A stretch of DNA of 64,000 nt from Stappia indica (GTDB lineage: Bacteria > Pseudomonadota > Alphaproteobacteria > Rhizobiales > Stappiaceae): NCBI RefSeq assembly GCF_009789575.1, contig NZ_CP046908.1, forward strand, positions 744,001-808,000, given 5' to 3'. Under the pieces are notes generated by a model. It searched no databases and was not told the DNA's origin. It was given only the letters and a program-made list of their open reading frames with translations. The translations under genes were made by a program, and so were the position numbers. Positions 5,683-17,170 of this stretch are shown piece after piece; position 1 is the stretch's first letter; every line of letters starts with the position of its first letter.

Positions 5683-6201
5683 TCAGGCGGCAGCCCCCTG
5701 CCCGCAGGCGGAAGACGCGGGCGCGCAGCGGGAGGCGGCGAAGCTCGGCGAGGCCGGCAGGCCGGCCGGAAGATGGACAGGCACATGAGCGGGGGCATGG
5801 GCGAAGGCAGCCGGCCCGCGCCACTGCTCCTCCTCGATGATGCGGCCGAGATGCCAGCGCTGGCGGACGGACACCGTCTCGCGGAAGACGCGGCCATCCA
5901 CCTCGACCCCGTCGAAGCGGCAGGAGAAATGCGCCGTCTCGCCCGCCCGGTCGCAGACCAGCCCGTCGATGGTGCCGCGCAGCATGGTGAAGCGGCGGGC
6001 AACGGGGTGCAACTTGCGCAGGACCGGTTCCAGCCCCTCGGCCGCCACCGCGCCGTTGTCGAAGAGGCGAATATCGGGGGCGAAATGCGCCCGCGCCGCG
6101 CCCAGGAGATCGCCGCGCGCCAGCGACACCAGATAGTCGTCGAGCCGGCTGCGAAACGGCGAAACGCGAAGGCGGGAGCGGAGCTGAAGGGCAATCGTCA
6201 T
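5683..6201 (-). CDS. NTF2-like / SnoaL-like protein
   Basis: A 172-residue protein whose first ~130 residues have the layout of an NTF2-like cone fold: an N-terminal helix (DDYLVSLARGDLLGAARAHF), then DIRLFDNGAVAAEG and later strands ending RQRWHLGRIIEEEQW. NTF2-like proteins range from small-molecule isomerases to binding proteins, so the substrate cannot be told. The Ala/Pro-rich tail (about residues 130-172) looks low-complexity. It is transcribed like gatC but about 210 bp upstream of it; co-transcription is uncertain. Confidence 0.7.
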   Translation of the reverse strand: MTIALQLRSRLRVSPFRSRLDDYLVSLARGDLLGAARAHFAPDIRLFDNGAVAAEGLEPVLRKLHPVARRFTMLRGTIDGLVCDRAGETAHFSCRFDGVEVDGRVFRETVSVRQRWHLGRIIEEEQWRGPAAFAHAPAHVPVHLPAGLPASPSFAASRCAPASSACGQGAAA

Positions 6202-6300
6202 GGCGGCACCTGTTCTGGATCGACGAGAACATTACGAGAACATTCTTCGTCTGTCCAGTCGTCAGAATGCCTCTTCAGGATGTGGTGAGACAGAGAGCCC

Positions 6301-6480
6301 CACTACCGCTCTGGCAACCAATGGCCCCCGGCGCGCGCTTGCGCGCGGCCGGGGTGACGGCAGAGGGGAAGCCAGGGCCGGCGCCTCTCCTCCGAGGTCA
6401 TTCCGGCCGCAGGCGCAGCCGGAGAGCCGGGAACCATTGGCAACCCCGGCAGGTGTTTTTTGCTCCAACCTCCCCAGGCG
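6301..6480. repeat. Type A composite palindromic repeat, copy 1
   Basis: About 180 bp made of two palindromes in opposite orientation. The left one is a GGCCCC...GGCCGGGGTGAC hairpin preceded by CCAATGG. The right one is GTCATTCCGGCC...GAGCCGGGAA followed by CCATTGG. The outer CCAATGG/CCATTGG boxes are inverted to each other, so the whole unit is mirror-like, as in BIMEs. The same unit recurs at 6728, 7156, 7937 and 8351. No coding potential beyond translated repeat is seen. Confidence 0.85.
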
Positions 6481-6727
6481 TCATTCCGGGCCAGCGGAAG
6501 CCAAGACCCGGGAAGGCGCGCGCCCTCTCGGCTGTCATGCCTGCGAAGGCAGGCATCCAGTATCCGCCGGGGCGGGCAGGTTTGCCAAAGCAGCCCCCTC
6601 TCGGCGCAGTTCGCCAGAGGCAACGTCACGGCTCCGGTCGCACGATCCGGGGTTACTGGATCCCGGTCTTCGGCTGCGCCGAAACCGGGATGACACTCTG
6701 TGTGTGACGTTAGCGCGGGAGTGTCCC
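6481..6727. repeat. Type B composite palindromic repeat, copy 1
   Basis: About 245 bp. It holds TGTCATGCCTGCGAAGGCAG, a short hairpin ending GCATCCAGTA, and about 120 bp later the inverted partner TTACTGGATCCCGGTC ending CCGGGATGACA. The inner boxes ATCCAGTA/TACTGGAT and the outer boxes TGTCAT/ATGACA are both inverted, giving a second mirrored composite element. It is almost identical to the copy at 8104-8350 (three differences seen). Confidence 0.85.
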
Positions 6728-6905
6728 CACTACCGCTCTGGCAGCCAATAGGCCCCGGCGCGCGCTGCGCTTGGCCGGGGTGACGGCAGAGGGGAAGCCA
6801 GGGCCGGCGCCTCCCCTCGGAGGTCATCCCGGCCGCAGGCGCAGCCGAAGAGCCGGGAACCATTGGCAACCCCGGCAGGTGTTTTTGGCTCCAACCTCCC
6901 CACGC
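6728..6905. repeat. Type A composite palindromic repeat, copy 2
   Basis: Same unit as at 6301-6480, with small differences (for example CCAATAGG in the left box and CCTCGGAGGTCATCCC in the middle). It directly abuts type B copies on both sides, giving an A-B-A-B-A tandem order from 6301 to 7331. Confidence 0.85.
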
Positions 6906-7155
6906 GTCATTCCAGCCAAGCGAAGCGCGACCCGGAACCGGCGTTGCCCCCTCTCGGCTGTCATGCCTGCGAAGGCAGGCATCCAGTATCCGCCGGGGCG
7001 GATGGTCGCGCGAAAGCACCCCACAGCCTCGGCAAGGGTCGCGCGAGGCAACGTCGAAGCTCCGGCCGCACGATCCGGGGTTACTGGATCCCGGTCTTCG
7101 GCTGCGCCGAAACCGGGATGACACTCTGTGTATGAGGTTAGCGCGGGAGTGTCCC
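6906..7155. repeat. Type B composite palindromic repeat, copy 2
   Basis: Same outer and inner boxes as copy 1 (TGTCATGCCTGCGAAGGCAG and CCGGGATGACA), but the middle segment between the palindromes differs (GGATGGTCGCGCGAAAGCACC). It is therefore a diverged or recombined copy rather than a simple duplication of its neighbour. Confidence 0.85.
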
Positions 7156-7380
7156 CACTGCCGCTCTGGCAACCAATGGCCCCGGCGCGCGCTGCGCTTG
7201 GCCGGGGTGACGGCAGAGGGGAAGCCAAGGCCGCGCCTCCCCTCCGAGGTCATCCCGGCCGCAGGCGCAGCCGAAGAGCCGGGAACCATTGGCAACCCCG
7301 GCAGGTGTTTTTGACTTCGGCCTCCCCACGCGTCATTCCGGGCGAGCATCGCGAGCCGGAACCGGAGAGGCACGGCGTTT
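7156..7380. repeat. Type A repeat copy 3 plus a short palindrome fragment
   Basis: Type A unit to about 7331, followed by a CGTCATTCCGGGCGAGCATC fragment that resembles the start of the repeats in the second array at 15975. The array then gives way to unique sequence leading into the small ORF at 7487. Confidence 0.75.
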
Positions 7381-7486
7381 GCGGTGCCCGCCGGGAGCGC
7401 CCCTGCCGTACTGCGATCACAATGATGATCGACATCATCGCGAGCATATTGCGAGCCGCCAGTATTTTTCAGGCACGGAGAGGCCG

Positions 7487-7795
7487 TTGCTCAAGAACAT
7501 CGTCATAGCCCTGCTGGCCCTGGGCCTGATTTCAGGGTTCCACGTTTTTCAGAAGAAGCTCTACCGGGCCAGCGTGGAGATTGCCGAGGCCCGCTGCGGC
7601 GAGATGGTCAACGCGATGCCGGATCGCGCCGACAGGACCGCATCCGGAACCTGCAAGCTCGTTCACCACGACATCTTCATGAAGCTGGAAATCGAGAACC
7701 GCCCAGACATCGTCATGTCGTGCGGGCTCGACTACGGGTTCTGGGGACCGTCCCGGCCGTCCGACTGCGAAATCCAGAAAACCCGCGCGAATTAG
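7487..7795 (+). CDS. Small membrane-anchored hypothetical protein
   Basis: A 102-residue protein of unknown function. TTG 7487 was chosen because a GGAGAGG sequence lies just upstream and the N-terminus then becomes a single membrane segment or signal anchor (LLKNIVIALLALGLISGF). The remainder is short and soluble with four Cys residues (EARCGEM, GTCKLV, MSCGLD, DCEIQ), which would suit two disulfides if it faces the periplasm. Codon use is less GC-biased at the start than in neighbouring genes. It is isolated between two blocks of intergenic repeats. No family is recognised; that it is expressed is inference. Confidence 0.6.
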   Translation: MLKNIVIALLALGLISGFHVFQKKLYRASVEIAEARCGEMVNAMPDRADRTASGTCKLVHHDIFMKLEIENRPDIVMSCGLDYGFWGPSRPSDCEIQKTRAN

Positions 7796-7936
7796 GACGG
7801 AGAGCTGACCGACAGGCCCTCGACTCTCCGGTCCCGGCTCGGCGCTTGCGCGCCGTCCGGGAGGACGAAGGAGGGGCTTGCGCGTGGGAGGACGTGCAAA
7901 AAGAGGATGCGCCCACGCAGGCGCCCCCTCGCCCTC

Positions 7937-8103
7937 GCTCTGGCAACCAATAGGCCCCGGCGCGCGCTGCGCTTGGCCGGGGTGACGGCAGAGGGGAAGC
8001 CAGGGCCGGCGCCTCCCCTCCGAGGTCATCCCGGCCGCAGGCGCAGCCGGAGAGCCGGGAGCCATTGGCAACCCCGGCAGGTGTTTTTGGCTCCCCGCCA
8101 AAC
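7937..8103. repeat. Type A composite palindromic repeat, copy 4
   Basis: Type A unit with the CCAATAGGCCCCGGCG left box and the CCATTGGCAACCCCGGCAGG right end. Immediately left of it (about 7826-7880) is a shorter palindrome-like stretch (GGTCCCGGCTCGGCGC and GCGCCGTCCGGGAGGAC) related to one in the 16-kb array. Confidence 0.8.
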
Positions 8104-8350
8104 GTCATTCCGGGCCAGCGGAAGCCAAGACCCGGGAAGGCGCGCGCCCTCTCGGCTGTCATGCCTGCGAAGGCAGGCATCCAGTATCCGCCGGGGCGGG
8201 CAGGTTTGCCAAAGCAGCCCCCTCTCGGCGCAGTGCGCCAGAGGCAACGTCACGGCTCCGGTCGCACGATCCGGGGTTACTGGATCCCGGTCTTCGGCTG
8301 CGCCGAAACCGGGATGACACTCTGTGTATGAGGTTAGCGCGGGAGTGTCC
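8104..8350. repeat. Type B composite palindromic repeat, copy 3
   Basis: Nearly identical over about 240 bp to 6481-6727: reading the two together only CAGTTCGCC/CAGTGCGCC and two bases near GTGTGTGACG/GTGTATGAGG differ. This is far closer than either is to the copy at 6906, pointing to recent copying or gene conversion across the intervening ORF. Confidence 0.85.
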
Positions 8351-8505
8351 CCACTACCGCTCTGGCAACCAATGGCCCCCGGCTCGCGCTTCGCTTGGCC
8401 GGGGTGACGGCAGAGGGGAAGCCAGGGCCGGCGCCCTCTCTCGGAGGTCATCCCCGCCGCAGGCGAGGCTGAAGAGCCGGGAGCCATTGGCAACCTCGGC
8501 AGGTC
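8351..8505. repeat. Type A composite palindromic repeat, copy 5
   Basis: Last unit of the first array; it ends within 20 bp of the stop codon of the UPF0173 hydrolase. The right palindrome is slightly changed (GTCATCCCCGCCGCAGGCGA). Confidence 0.8.
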
Positions 8506-8532
8506 TGAGGCGGAAGCCCCCGCCTCAGACCT
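8501..8532 (-). terminator. 13-bp perfect hairpin over the stop of the UPF0173 gene
   Basis: AGGTCTGAGGCGG (8501-8513) pairs perfectly with 8520-8532, leaving a 6-nt loop. The stop codon of the minus-strand gene (8525-8527) lies inside the stem. There is no T-run after it, so a classical Rho-independent terminator is not certain; it could instead protect the mRNA 3' end. Confidence 0.5.
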
Positions 8533-9232
8533 CCAGCGAGGTGCCGGGCGCGGTGACCTTCACGCGCGAGCCCTGGTCGCCCATTTCCCGCACGAAGGCA
8601 TCCGCCGACTGGTCGAGAATCGGGAACGTGCCGTAGTGGCAGGGGATGACCGTGTCGAAGTCGAAGAAGCGGCGGCAGGCGAGCGCGGCCGTGCGCGCGC
8701 CCATGGTGAAGCGGTCGCCGATGGGCACGATGCCGACCTTCGGCGCGTAGAGCTCGTTGACCAGCGCCATGTCGCCGAAAATGTCGGTGTCGCCCATGTG
8801 GTAGAGGGTCGGCTGGTCCTTGGCCCGCACGATCAGGCCGTTCGGCTGGCCCATATAGACCGGCGGCCAGCCGCCGGCGAGCGAGGACGAGGTGTGGTGC
8901 GCCTGGGTGAGCGAGACCGCGAAGGGGCCGACATCGACCGTGCCGCCGCAGCCCATCGGGTTGATGTTCTCGTGGCCCTGCGACTGGACCCACATGGAGA
9001 CCTCGAAATTCGCCGTGACCTGCGCGCCGGTCGCCTTGGCGATGGCGATAGTGTCGCCGGTGTGGTCGTCATGGCCGTGGGTGAGCAGGATGTGGGTGAC
9101 GCCCTCGCTGGCCTTCTCGACGCTCATGTTCGAGGGGAAGGACGGATTGCCGCTGAGGAACGGGTCGATGAGGAGGATGGCGCCGGGAATTTCGACGCGG
9201 AACGCGGCATGGCCGAGATAGGTGAGCTTCAT
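8525..9232 (-). CDS. UPF0173 metal-dependent hydrolase (MBL fold)
   Basis: A 235-residue metallo-beta-lactamase-fold protein of the UPF0173/UlaG-like group. It begins MKLTYLGHAAFRVE, typical of that group, and has the dinuclear-metal motif THGHDDHTGD (about residues 51-60), a later metal-ligand region (MGDTDIFGDM) and a C-terminal IPCHYGTFP. No signal peptide is seen, so it is cytosolic. Relatives act on lactones or phosphodiesters; the substrate here is unknown. The length is typical. It is divergent from ruvX. Confidence 0.9.
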   Translation of the reverse strand: MKLTYLGHAAFRVEIPGAILLIDPFLSGNPSFPSNMSVEKASEGVTHILLTHGHDDHTGDTIAIAKATGAQVTANFEVSMWVQSQGHENINPMGCGGTVDVGPFAVSLTQAHHTSSSLAGGWPPVYMGQPNGLIVRAKDQPTLYHMGDTDIFGDMALVNELYAPKVGIVPIGDRFTMGARTAALACRRFFDFDTVIPCHYGTFPILDQSADAFVREMGDQGSRVKVTAPGTSLEV

Positions 9233-15974: not shown

Positions 15975-16480
15975 GCGTCTTCCCGGACGAGCATCGCGAG
16001 ATCCGGGACCGGGGAGGCACGGCGATTTTGACGTCGTTGGGGAGTGCCTTCGTGAGGCCCTCGGCTCGCCGATCCCGGATCTCCGGCTTCGCCTGCGTCC
16101 GGGAGGACGCAAAGAGGGGCCTGCGTCCGGGAGGGCGCAAAAAGAAACGGCGCGTCCGGGAGGCAGGCTTGAGGCGGGACGGCGTTCGCTCCACTCCGCC
16201 GCTGTCACACCCGCAAAGGTGGGTATCCAGTATCCGCCGGGGCGGGCAGATATGCGAAGGCAGCACCCCAGCCTCGGCGAGGGTCACTCGCGGCAACGCC
16301 ACGGCTCGGGCCGCGCGACCTGGGGTTACTGGGTCCCGGTCTTCGGCTTCGCCGAAACCGGGACGACAGGCTGAGCGTGGGGTTCGCGTCGGCGTGTCAT
16401 CGCCGCCGCTCTGGCAACCAATAGGCCCCGGCGCGCGCATGCGCTTGGCCGGGGTGACGGCCGAGGGTGGGGCAGCGGCG
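15975..16480. repeat. Second repeat array, unit 1
   Basis: About 505 bp built from related palindromes: CTTCCCGGACGAGCATCGCG, a GATCCCGGATCTCCGGCTTC hairpin, a type B-like unit (CACACCCGCAAAGGTGGGTA to GAAACCGGGACGACAGG, about 16205-16370) and half of a type A unit (CTCTGGCAACCAATAGGCCC, about 16408-16467). It shares the ATCCAGTA/TTACTGG inner boxes with the 6-8 kb array but is clearly diverged. The sequence from about 15620 to 15975 holds no gene or repeat I recognise. Confidence 0.8.
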
Positions 16481-16660
16481 GCGGGATGATCACCCCCCTC
16501 TGTCGGCTAACGCCGACATCTCCCCCTCAAGGGGGGAGAAGGGTGCATGAGGCGCGACTGGCGCCCCCTCTCGACGGGTCACCCCGGCCGCAGGCGAAGC
16601 CGGAGAGCCGGGGGCCATTGGTTCCCAGAGCGGCCGAAATGAAGCTCCCCCCTCTCCGCG
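16481..16660. repeat. Spacer with the right half of a type A repeat
   Basis: Contains a short CTCCCCCTCAAGGGGGGAG palindrome (about 16519-16537), then GGTCACCCCGGCCGCAGGCG ... CCATTGGTTCC (about 16576-16625), the right half of a type A unit. Together with the left half ending at 16467 it appears to be one type A element split by about 100 bp of other sequence. Confidence 0.65.
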
Positions 16661-17170
16661 TCTTCCCGGGCAAGGCGCAGCCGCGACCCGGGACCGGGGA
16701 GGCACGGCGATTTTGGCGTCGTTGGGGAGTGCCTTCGTGAGGCCCTTGGCTCGCCGATCCCGGATCTCCGGCTTCGCCTGCGTCCGGGAGGACGCAAAAG
16801 GAAGGCCGCGTCCGGGAGGCCGAACGGAGGGGGCGTGAGTGAGGCAGGCTTGAGGCGGGACCGCGTTCGCTCCACTCCACCGCTGTCATACCCGCGAAGG
16901 CGGGTATCCAGTATCCGCCGGGGCCGGTGATGGCGCAAAGGCGGCAGCTCCCCGCCGTTCGGCGGCCGTCGCCGATCCTGTGGCAGCACCACGGCTCAAC
17001 CCGCGCGACCTGGGGTTACTGGGTCCCGGTCTTCGGCTGCGCCGAAACCGGGACGACAGGCTGAGCGTGGGGTTCGCGTCGGCGTGTCATCGCCGCCGCT
17101 CTGGCAACCAATAGGCCCCGGCGCGCGCTCGCGCTTGGCCGGGGTGACCTCGGAGGGTGGAGGCGACGGC
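16661..17170. repeat. Second repeat array, unit 2
   Basis: A second copy of the 15975-16480 unit in the same order and orientation. Long stretches are the same (GGAGGCACGGCGATTTTGGC, GGGAGTGCCTTCGTGAGGCC, GGGGTTCGCGTCGGCGTGTC). The centre of the type B portion differs (GGTGATGGCGCAAAGGCGGC). It ends about 75 bp before the stop of ivd. Confidence 0.8.

Follow-up and report, generated by a model that had tools for sequence, protein, structure and literature searches.

The window analysed here, a 64,000-nucleotide stretch of the Stappia indica genome (G000:C1:744001-808000, within a single contig of 5,116,759 bases), contains a locus of locally multiplied and reshuffled palindromes of a known kind, lying between two ordinary genes. 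The array resembles the BIMEs and is distinguished by a new phasing of its A and B modules and by an orphan ORF inside one of its units. Judged from its sequence, it most probably (probability of about 0.78) represents a BIME-like mosaic of CGTC/TGTC-tagged REPs, which would have grown by local duplication and recombination and for which no RAYT would be needed today. Sister comparisons covered 14 Stappia genomes, and the wider surveys covered 61 genomes of the family and 289 alphaproteobacteria.

Organisation of the array

Five A modules, three B modules and one C module occupy positions 6298-8505 of the window in the order A-B-A-B-A-C-A-B-A. The array is flanked by an ORF on the minus strand (5683-6201), which shows a sub-threshold SnoaL-like match and is located upstream of gatC/gatA, and by a metallo-beta-lactamase-fold hydrolase gene (8525-9232, minus strand), the 3' end of which abuts the array. 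A hairpin with an 8-bp stem (8502-8531), recognised in the sequence and spanning the hydrolase stop codon, forms the right border. On the basis of the hydrolase protein, the closest named relatives are Stappia sp. WLB 29 and Stappia indica SBBC 49 (both 98%); the contig of the former starts inside the array (L061) and the module order there is incomplete.

All modules were placed on the plus strand. The first A module (6314-6447) is composed of two CGTC-type REPs with their tags inside (TT dimer) and CCAATGG/CCATTGG at the outer ends. It is followed by E1 (6476-6514), a profile match to a single CGTC REP half with the same start as the left end of C, and by the first B module (6533-6695), an HH heterodimer. 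Subsequently, the second A (6741-6873), the second B (6959-7123), whose spacer is unlike those of the other two B modules, and the third A (7169-7299) are found, after which C (7331-7867), a pair of outward-tagged CGTC REPs, carries the small ORF in its spacer. The fourth A (7943-8075), a further E1 profile match (8103-8138), the third B (8157-8319), with a spacer 99% identical to that of the first, and the fifth A (8365-8497) complete the array. Four of the five A copies are followed by the first 27 bases of E1 (repeat family D5). Tandem Repeats Finder reports a 426-base period over 6298-7365 (2.5 copies, 89% matches), and a 300-base block at 6469-6768 is repeated at 8093-8392 with 96% identity.

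A reading made from the sequence only had located the five A and three B modules at the places where they are found here, and the orientations it gave them are borne out, with CCAATGG/CCATTGG outward and GTCA inward in A, and TGTCAT/ATGACA outward and ATCCAGTA/TACTGGAT inward in B. Its order of A-B-A-B-A, a small ORF and A-B-A is correct for the modules, but the ORF does not interrupt the alternation, as it lies within C, which fills a B slot. The repeats also leave long open frames on the minus strand of 6303-7373, one of them of 356 aa, which are probably spurious. A second cluster of the same modules occurs at 16071-17170 of the window, with B at 16201-16372 and 16882-17062 and pieces of A at 16370-16502, 16558-16633 and 17061-17170. 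Beside this cluster there is a 28-base tandem repeat (2.4 copies, 16095-16163), the unit of which contains GCGTCCGGGAGGACGC and an A-rich stretch.

Structure and boundaries of the modules

Each module is a pair of palindromes of opposite orientation, as the sequence-only reading had held in likening the architecture to that of BIMEs. The left hairpin of B reads TGTC, ATGCCTGC-GAAG-GCAGGCAT and CCAGTA, giving a TGTC tag, a stem of 8 bp, a loop of 4 nt and a CCA tail, and the right hairpin, inverted after the spacer, reads TGTC, ATCCCGGT-16 nt-ACCGGGAT and CCAGTA, with a loop of 16 nt. The tags lie outside in B and C and inside in A, which is the reverse arrangement of B, with inner tags and outer CCAATGG/CCATTGG. 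The 32 full B units, which are 149-175 bp long, all carry TGTC at both ends, a left tail of CCA, a right tail of CCAG and an A-T first pair in the left stem, the second pair being T-A in 28 of them. The tags of A and C are CGTC or a variant thereof, the first pair of the A hairpins is imperfect, and most right ends of A are CCATTGG.

The REP ends are fixed. To the left of B, agreement among copies begins approximately six bases ahead of TGTC, with CTC, CAC or the like followed by GC or one of its variants, while to the right it fades a few bases past GACA unless an A module comes next. Across 22 full copies, the conserved sequence of A starts near CCGCTCTGG and ends near CACCCTCGGC. The slot approximately 40 bp past A is occupied by the left REP of B or by a CGTC-type left REP, depending on the copy. 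C-like ends are also present elsewhere in the genome, with seven profile matches to the right end in the fetched sequence. A repeat of the type CCCCCTCAAGGGGGGAGA is interspersed with the modules of relatives (at L062 8896-9100 and in adjacent parts, as well as at the G010 and G016 loci) and also flanks some A copies in S. indica.

Genome-wide copies and phasing of A and B

The 30-mer of the left B hairpin, with up to three mismatches allowed, has three exact copies in the window and none in 100 shuffles, and at up to three mismatches it has 38 matches in the whole genome and none in the reversed control. A relaxed pattern for the same hairpin finds 39 matches in the genome, again with none in the reversed control. 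The genome search and alignment suggested by the sequence-only reading thus recover units which recur genome-wide with shared ends. That reading had named generic GC-rich inverted repeats as the finding that would overturn it; these control counts and the shared ends refute that explanation. The repeat is not found in phage records, plasmid records yield two 49-base matches only, both in Pannonibacter, and Rfam yields no family above chance, its four sub-threshold microRNA matches being taken as chance.

Whole-genome totals refer to the left B pattern, and A was counted in 32 merged stretches of fetched sequence, a part of the genome amounting to 109,312 bases with overlaps free of conflict. 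After A matches called on both strands were dropped, this sequence holds 36 B and 39 A matches. Among 36 neighbouring pairs, 34 join an A with a B, and 32 of these 34 share one strand, although the strand call for A is weak because A is nearly symmetric. From A to B, 12 of 17 gaps measure 38-46 bp, four 79-84 bp and one 330 bp, and an extra REP may fit within the gaps of 79-84 bp. From B to A it is 33-47 bp in nine of 15 cases, 146-166 bp in five and 274 bp in one. Twelve of the 36 B and nine of the 39 A matches lie more than 400 bp from any other A or B, which indicates that A and B are separable. The proposal that the GTCA ends of A and B could represent a single mobile unit viewed from either side is therefore only partly sustained: these ends, in A, B and C alike, do belong to one tag class (CGTC/TGTC REP), and most neighbouring A and B modules keep a phase of 38-46 bp, but both modules also occur as solo copies.

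Variation of hairpins and spacers

Among 483 between-locus pairs of the 32 full B units, the left and right REPs are 0.931 and 0.942 identical on average, while the spacers are only 0.664 identical, compared to 0.591 when spacers are shuffled. The maximum between-locus spacer identity is 0.85. By comparison, six of 13 same-locus pairs have spacers at least 0.98 identical (three of these from one trio) and the other seven fall at 0.60-0.74, so that some neighbouring copies are not recent duplicates. Secondary structure of the spacer was rejected as a conserved signal, as the folds of the 32 whole units are no more stable than those with shuffled spacers (z of -1.50 to 1.19).

Variation within the left B hairpin is mostly confined to the second and third stem pairs, the two sides changing together. 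In the 32 units, pair 2 is T-A (28), C-G (3) or C-A (1) and pair 3 is A-T (20) or G-C (12). Among 82 units from three species, 72 fit the scoring pattern and carry the alleles TA-GAAG-TA (34), TG-GAAG-CA (20), CG-GCAG-CG (14) or others (4), such that 68 of the 72 copies correspond to one of three linked stem-loop-stem combinations.

Several of 35 site pairs with orthologous outer flanks hold unrelated module strings beside B, so outer-flank orthology overstates the orthology of the units, and copies were therefore matched across species as reciprocal-best spacer pairs (36 pairs, including 81 of the 82 units). These matched pairs have species in common and do not count as independent events, and since the outside flanks mismatch in some of them, not all are strict orthologues. 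Of their 288 stem cells, 252 are unchanged, 13 are changed on both sides, four are changed on one side with pairing kept and 19 are broken, 14 of the latter deriving from one copy (G010 L217) in which a loop insertion was misread by the ungapped count. The cleanest case is that of G000:1167355 and G010 L216, with flanks 1.00 and 0.98 identical, a spacer identity of 0.93 and an exchanged A-T/G-C pair in the hairpin. In two other pairs the left flank switches at the hairpin, while the spacer and right flank agree: G000|4212033:4111 and G016 L244:1013 (left flank 0.69 against a background mean of 0.67, spacer 0.95, right flank 0.91) and G010 L218 and G016 L245 (0.56, 0.92 and 1.00, respectively). 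Many of the 107 flank-compared pairs are intermediate between the hairpin-only and left-flank-change classes.

The same site in sister species and the orphan ORF

The hydrolase is present in all 14 Stappia genomes. Six of these carry modules between the upstream gene and the hydrolase, in an order that differs in each, and the other eight have no module between the same two genes. Aside from S. indica (G000), modules are found in G004, where the site is cut by a contig end, in G010 (half A, C with ORF, B, C without ORF and part of A), in G016 (part of A, ORF unit and part of A), in G032 (C-like ends, A, B and part of A, with no ORF) and in G038 (C with ORF only). Whole-genome counts of the left B pattern amount to 39 in G000, 29 in G004, 31 in G010, 23 in G016, 30 in G032 and 11 in G050, with a single match each in G022, G029 and G044 and none in G026, G035, G038, G041 and G047. 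When the sequences flanking two solo B copies and a solo A copy were sought in five sister genomes, neither a clean empty site nor a target duplication came to light; B was common to some of the species, and elsewhere other mosaic sequence was present or only one flank matched.

The orphan ORF in the spacer of C (7487-7795, plus strand) codes for 102 aa, with a TTG start and a hydrophobic N-terminus, and has no match to any Pfam, NCBIfam or PHROGs family. Five of the 14 Stappia genomes contain this ORF, and a search of 47 further genomes of the family found it in none. The C modules with the ORF segment are those of G000, G004, G010, G016, where the left end is shortened, and G038, while C copies without it occur in S. 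indica itself (G000:C1:5046630), G010 and G032. The length and frame of the ORF are kept among the copies, and that of G038 is open over residues 1-101. In a crude count over four sequences, excluding the G038 copy, non-synonymous substitutions (5-18) are about equal to or more numerous than synonymous ones (7-9), and coding constraint is thus not shown by this count. One C dimer may have acquired the ORF in its spacer before the divergence of the six species that bear the array. The captured ORF shows that a segment of gene size can be accommodated within an HH dimer.

Origin and maintenance of the array

In the array, outward-tagged REP pairs (B and C, REPIN-like HH dimers) alternate with inward-tagged pairs (A). 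In the preferred interpretation, the array would have grown by segmental duplication and by recombination between the repeated modules, probably aided by hairpins in single-stranded DNA during replication. The likeness of the hairpins could derive from copying over one another, from template-switch repair between the arms or from selection acting on the palindrome. Against this interpretation, the fixed phasing of A and B at many loci with diverged spacers could equally reflect an old composite that was dispersed whole. Copying of the 27-nt CGTC hairpins as units, independently of a RAYT and by means of an enzyme or of template switching at replication, is possible but doubtful, its signs being the three linked alleles, the hairpin-only differences between sister species and the recent growth in copy number in one Stappia clade free of Y1_Tnp.

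The spread of such palindromes is usually attributed to an enzyme, the RAYT (TnpA-REP, a HUH Y1 transposase). The sequence-only reading had proposed looking for a RAYT/IS200-like transposase in the same genome, and none is found there: PF01797 (Y1_Tnp) has no match at E<=1 in S. indica, while the same search is positive in ten of 14 control genomes, and no match at E<=0.001 is found in any of the 14 Stappia genomes. CGTC-type REPs of Neisseria have reportedly been tied to a RAYT group in later work. That the repeats are REPINs mobilised by a RAYT in S. indica would agree with their HH dimers, the conserved ends and less conserved spacers of which resemble those of REPINs as far as these are set out in the passages of PMC3116915 considered here. 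It would also agree with the HH dimers of other genera, in which, among the matches listed, the spacing between REP starts is constant within a lineage (74-79 bp in 11 pairs of G017, 75-77 bp in six pairs of G005 and 57 bp in three pairs of G111). Of the 61 family genomes, 12 have Y1_Tnp and 30 have the REP, the latter being present in one of the 12 Y1-positive and 29 of the 49 Y1-negative genomes, a negative association (p=0.0026) that is confounded by kinship, as one REP-free genus holds many of the Y1 matches. Y1_Tnp is concentrated in genus g6, which lacks the REP pattern, and G011 is the sole family genome with both. Among the 289 alphaproteobacteria, unevenly sampled across species and uncorrected for kinship, 58 carry Y1_Tnp and 44 carry the REP. 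When any REP match is counted there is a weak positive trend, with Y1_Tnp in 13 of 44 genomes compared to 45 of the remaining 245 (odds ratio 1.86, p=0.10), but no association is observed for counts of at least five or at least ten (p=1.0), and only four of the 20 genomes with at least ten REPs have Y1_Tnp, as expected from the base rate, while 16 have none. In addition, no transposase gene is flanked by CGTC REPs in the relevant parts of PMC3733652. With no Y1_Tnp in its own or sister genomes and no link with REP-rich genomes, a RAYT was rejected as the driver, and mobilisation by such an enzyme in S. indica is highly improbable.

Selection of the hairpins for a host function, such as the formation of RNA 3' ends, mRNA stability, termination or protein binding, with the array as a by-product, is possible but doubtful. 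REPs that remain 93-94% alike while spacers drop to 66%, paired changes that preserve the stem and the position of the array against the 3' end of the hydrolase gene would all be expected of such a function, yet the paired changes would also result from arm-to-arm template switching. Furthermore, eight of the 14 Stappia genomes lack the whole array between the same neighbours, copy number varies between close species, the whole units fold no more stably than their shuffled counterparts and there is no Rfam family above chance. A MITE-like element or insertion sequence remnant, moved in trans by a DDE transposase, would account for the fixed inverted ends (TGTC...GACA) and the scattered solo copies, but every end forms a full hairpin of its own that has both tag and tail, target duplications were not seen, and phage records lack the repeat while plasmid records offer only the two short matches, making this origin highly improbable. 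The chance occurrence of inverted repeats without fixed boundaries, to which a GC-rich genome with many weak inverted repeats might lend itself, has a negligible probability in view of the window and genome counts against their controls and of the ends shared even by diverged copies. A mosaic grown by local duplication and recombination remains the preferred explanation. The close Stappia clade holds 23-39 left B matches per genome, while the same pattern has none in the sister G038, with no Y1 match in any of them; this contrast makes the upkeep of CGTC REPs, whether by a different enzyme or by plain replication errors, a testable question in an easily grown marine bacterium.

Comparison with known repeat systems

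Among the literature matches listed, none pairs Stappia with repeat terms. BIMEs of E. coli bind IHF, gyrase or Pol I. These mosaics of y and z REPs, as described in the sections of PMC8266576 consulted, resemble the Stappia array in their alternating orientation, variable linkers and intergenic tandem copies. They differ in having a GTAG rather than a CGTC/TGTC tag, with sequences that appear unrelated by eye, and in the group 2 TnpA-REP of E. coli, as opposed to the lack of a Y1_Tnp match in S. indica. The REPINs (Bertels and Rainey 2011, PMC3116915) are likewise doublets of inverted REPs in which the ends are conserved and the spacers less so, but in the relevant passages they are defined in RAYT-containing genomes with GTAG-type REPs, whereas the tag here is TGTC/CGTC and there is no RAYT.

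The closest resemblance is to the CGTC-tagged REP superfamily (Di Nocera, De Gregorio and Rocco 2013, PMC3733652). In the portions of that paper drawn upon here, its members have an unpaired CGTC, TGTC or CCTC tag, an 8-9 bp stem with A-T at the first positions, a loop of 4-5 nt, longer in some species, and a CCA tail; no transposase gene flanked by them was found, one proposal being that the families are dying out, and their mover is left open. The left hairpin of B shares with CGTC-1 the CGTC/TGTC tag, the 8-bp stem opening with A-T, the 4-nt loop and the CCA tail, and further similarities with the CGTC-1 repeats, as characterised in those portions, are the predominance of HH dimers, the variable spacers, the alphaproteobacterial host and the lack of an associated transposase. 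The last of these, the lack of a dedicated transposase beside the repeats, is judged on Y1_Tnp, which has no match in the S. indica genome. The dRS3 repeats of Neisseria, counted as CGTC-1 and described in the same portions as clustered in mosaic intergenic regions, are similar by description. TT dimers, termed rare in those portions of PMC3733652, are abundant in Stappia as the A modules and are phased with HH dimers. The passages on CGTC REPs do not describe such a phased TT-HH composite, a fixed B heterodimer or an ORF in an HH dimer. In Stappia, by contrast with CGTC-1, B takes the form of a fixed heterodimer, with a structured loop of 16 nt in its right hairpin, and one HH dimer encloses an ORF.
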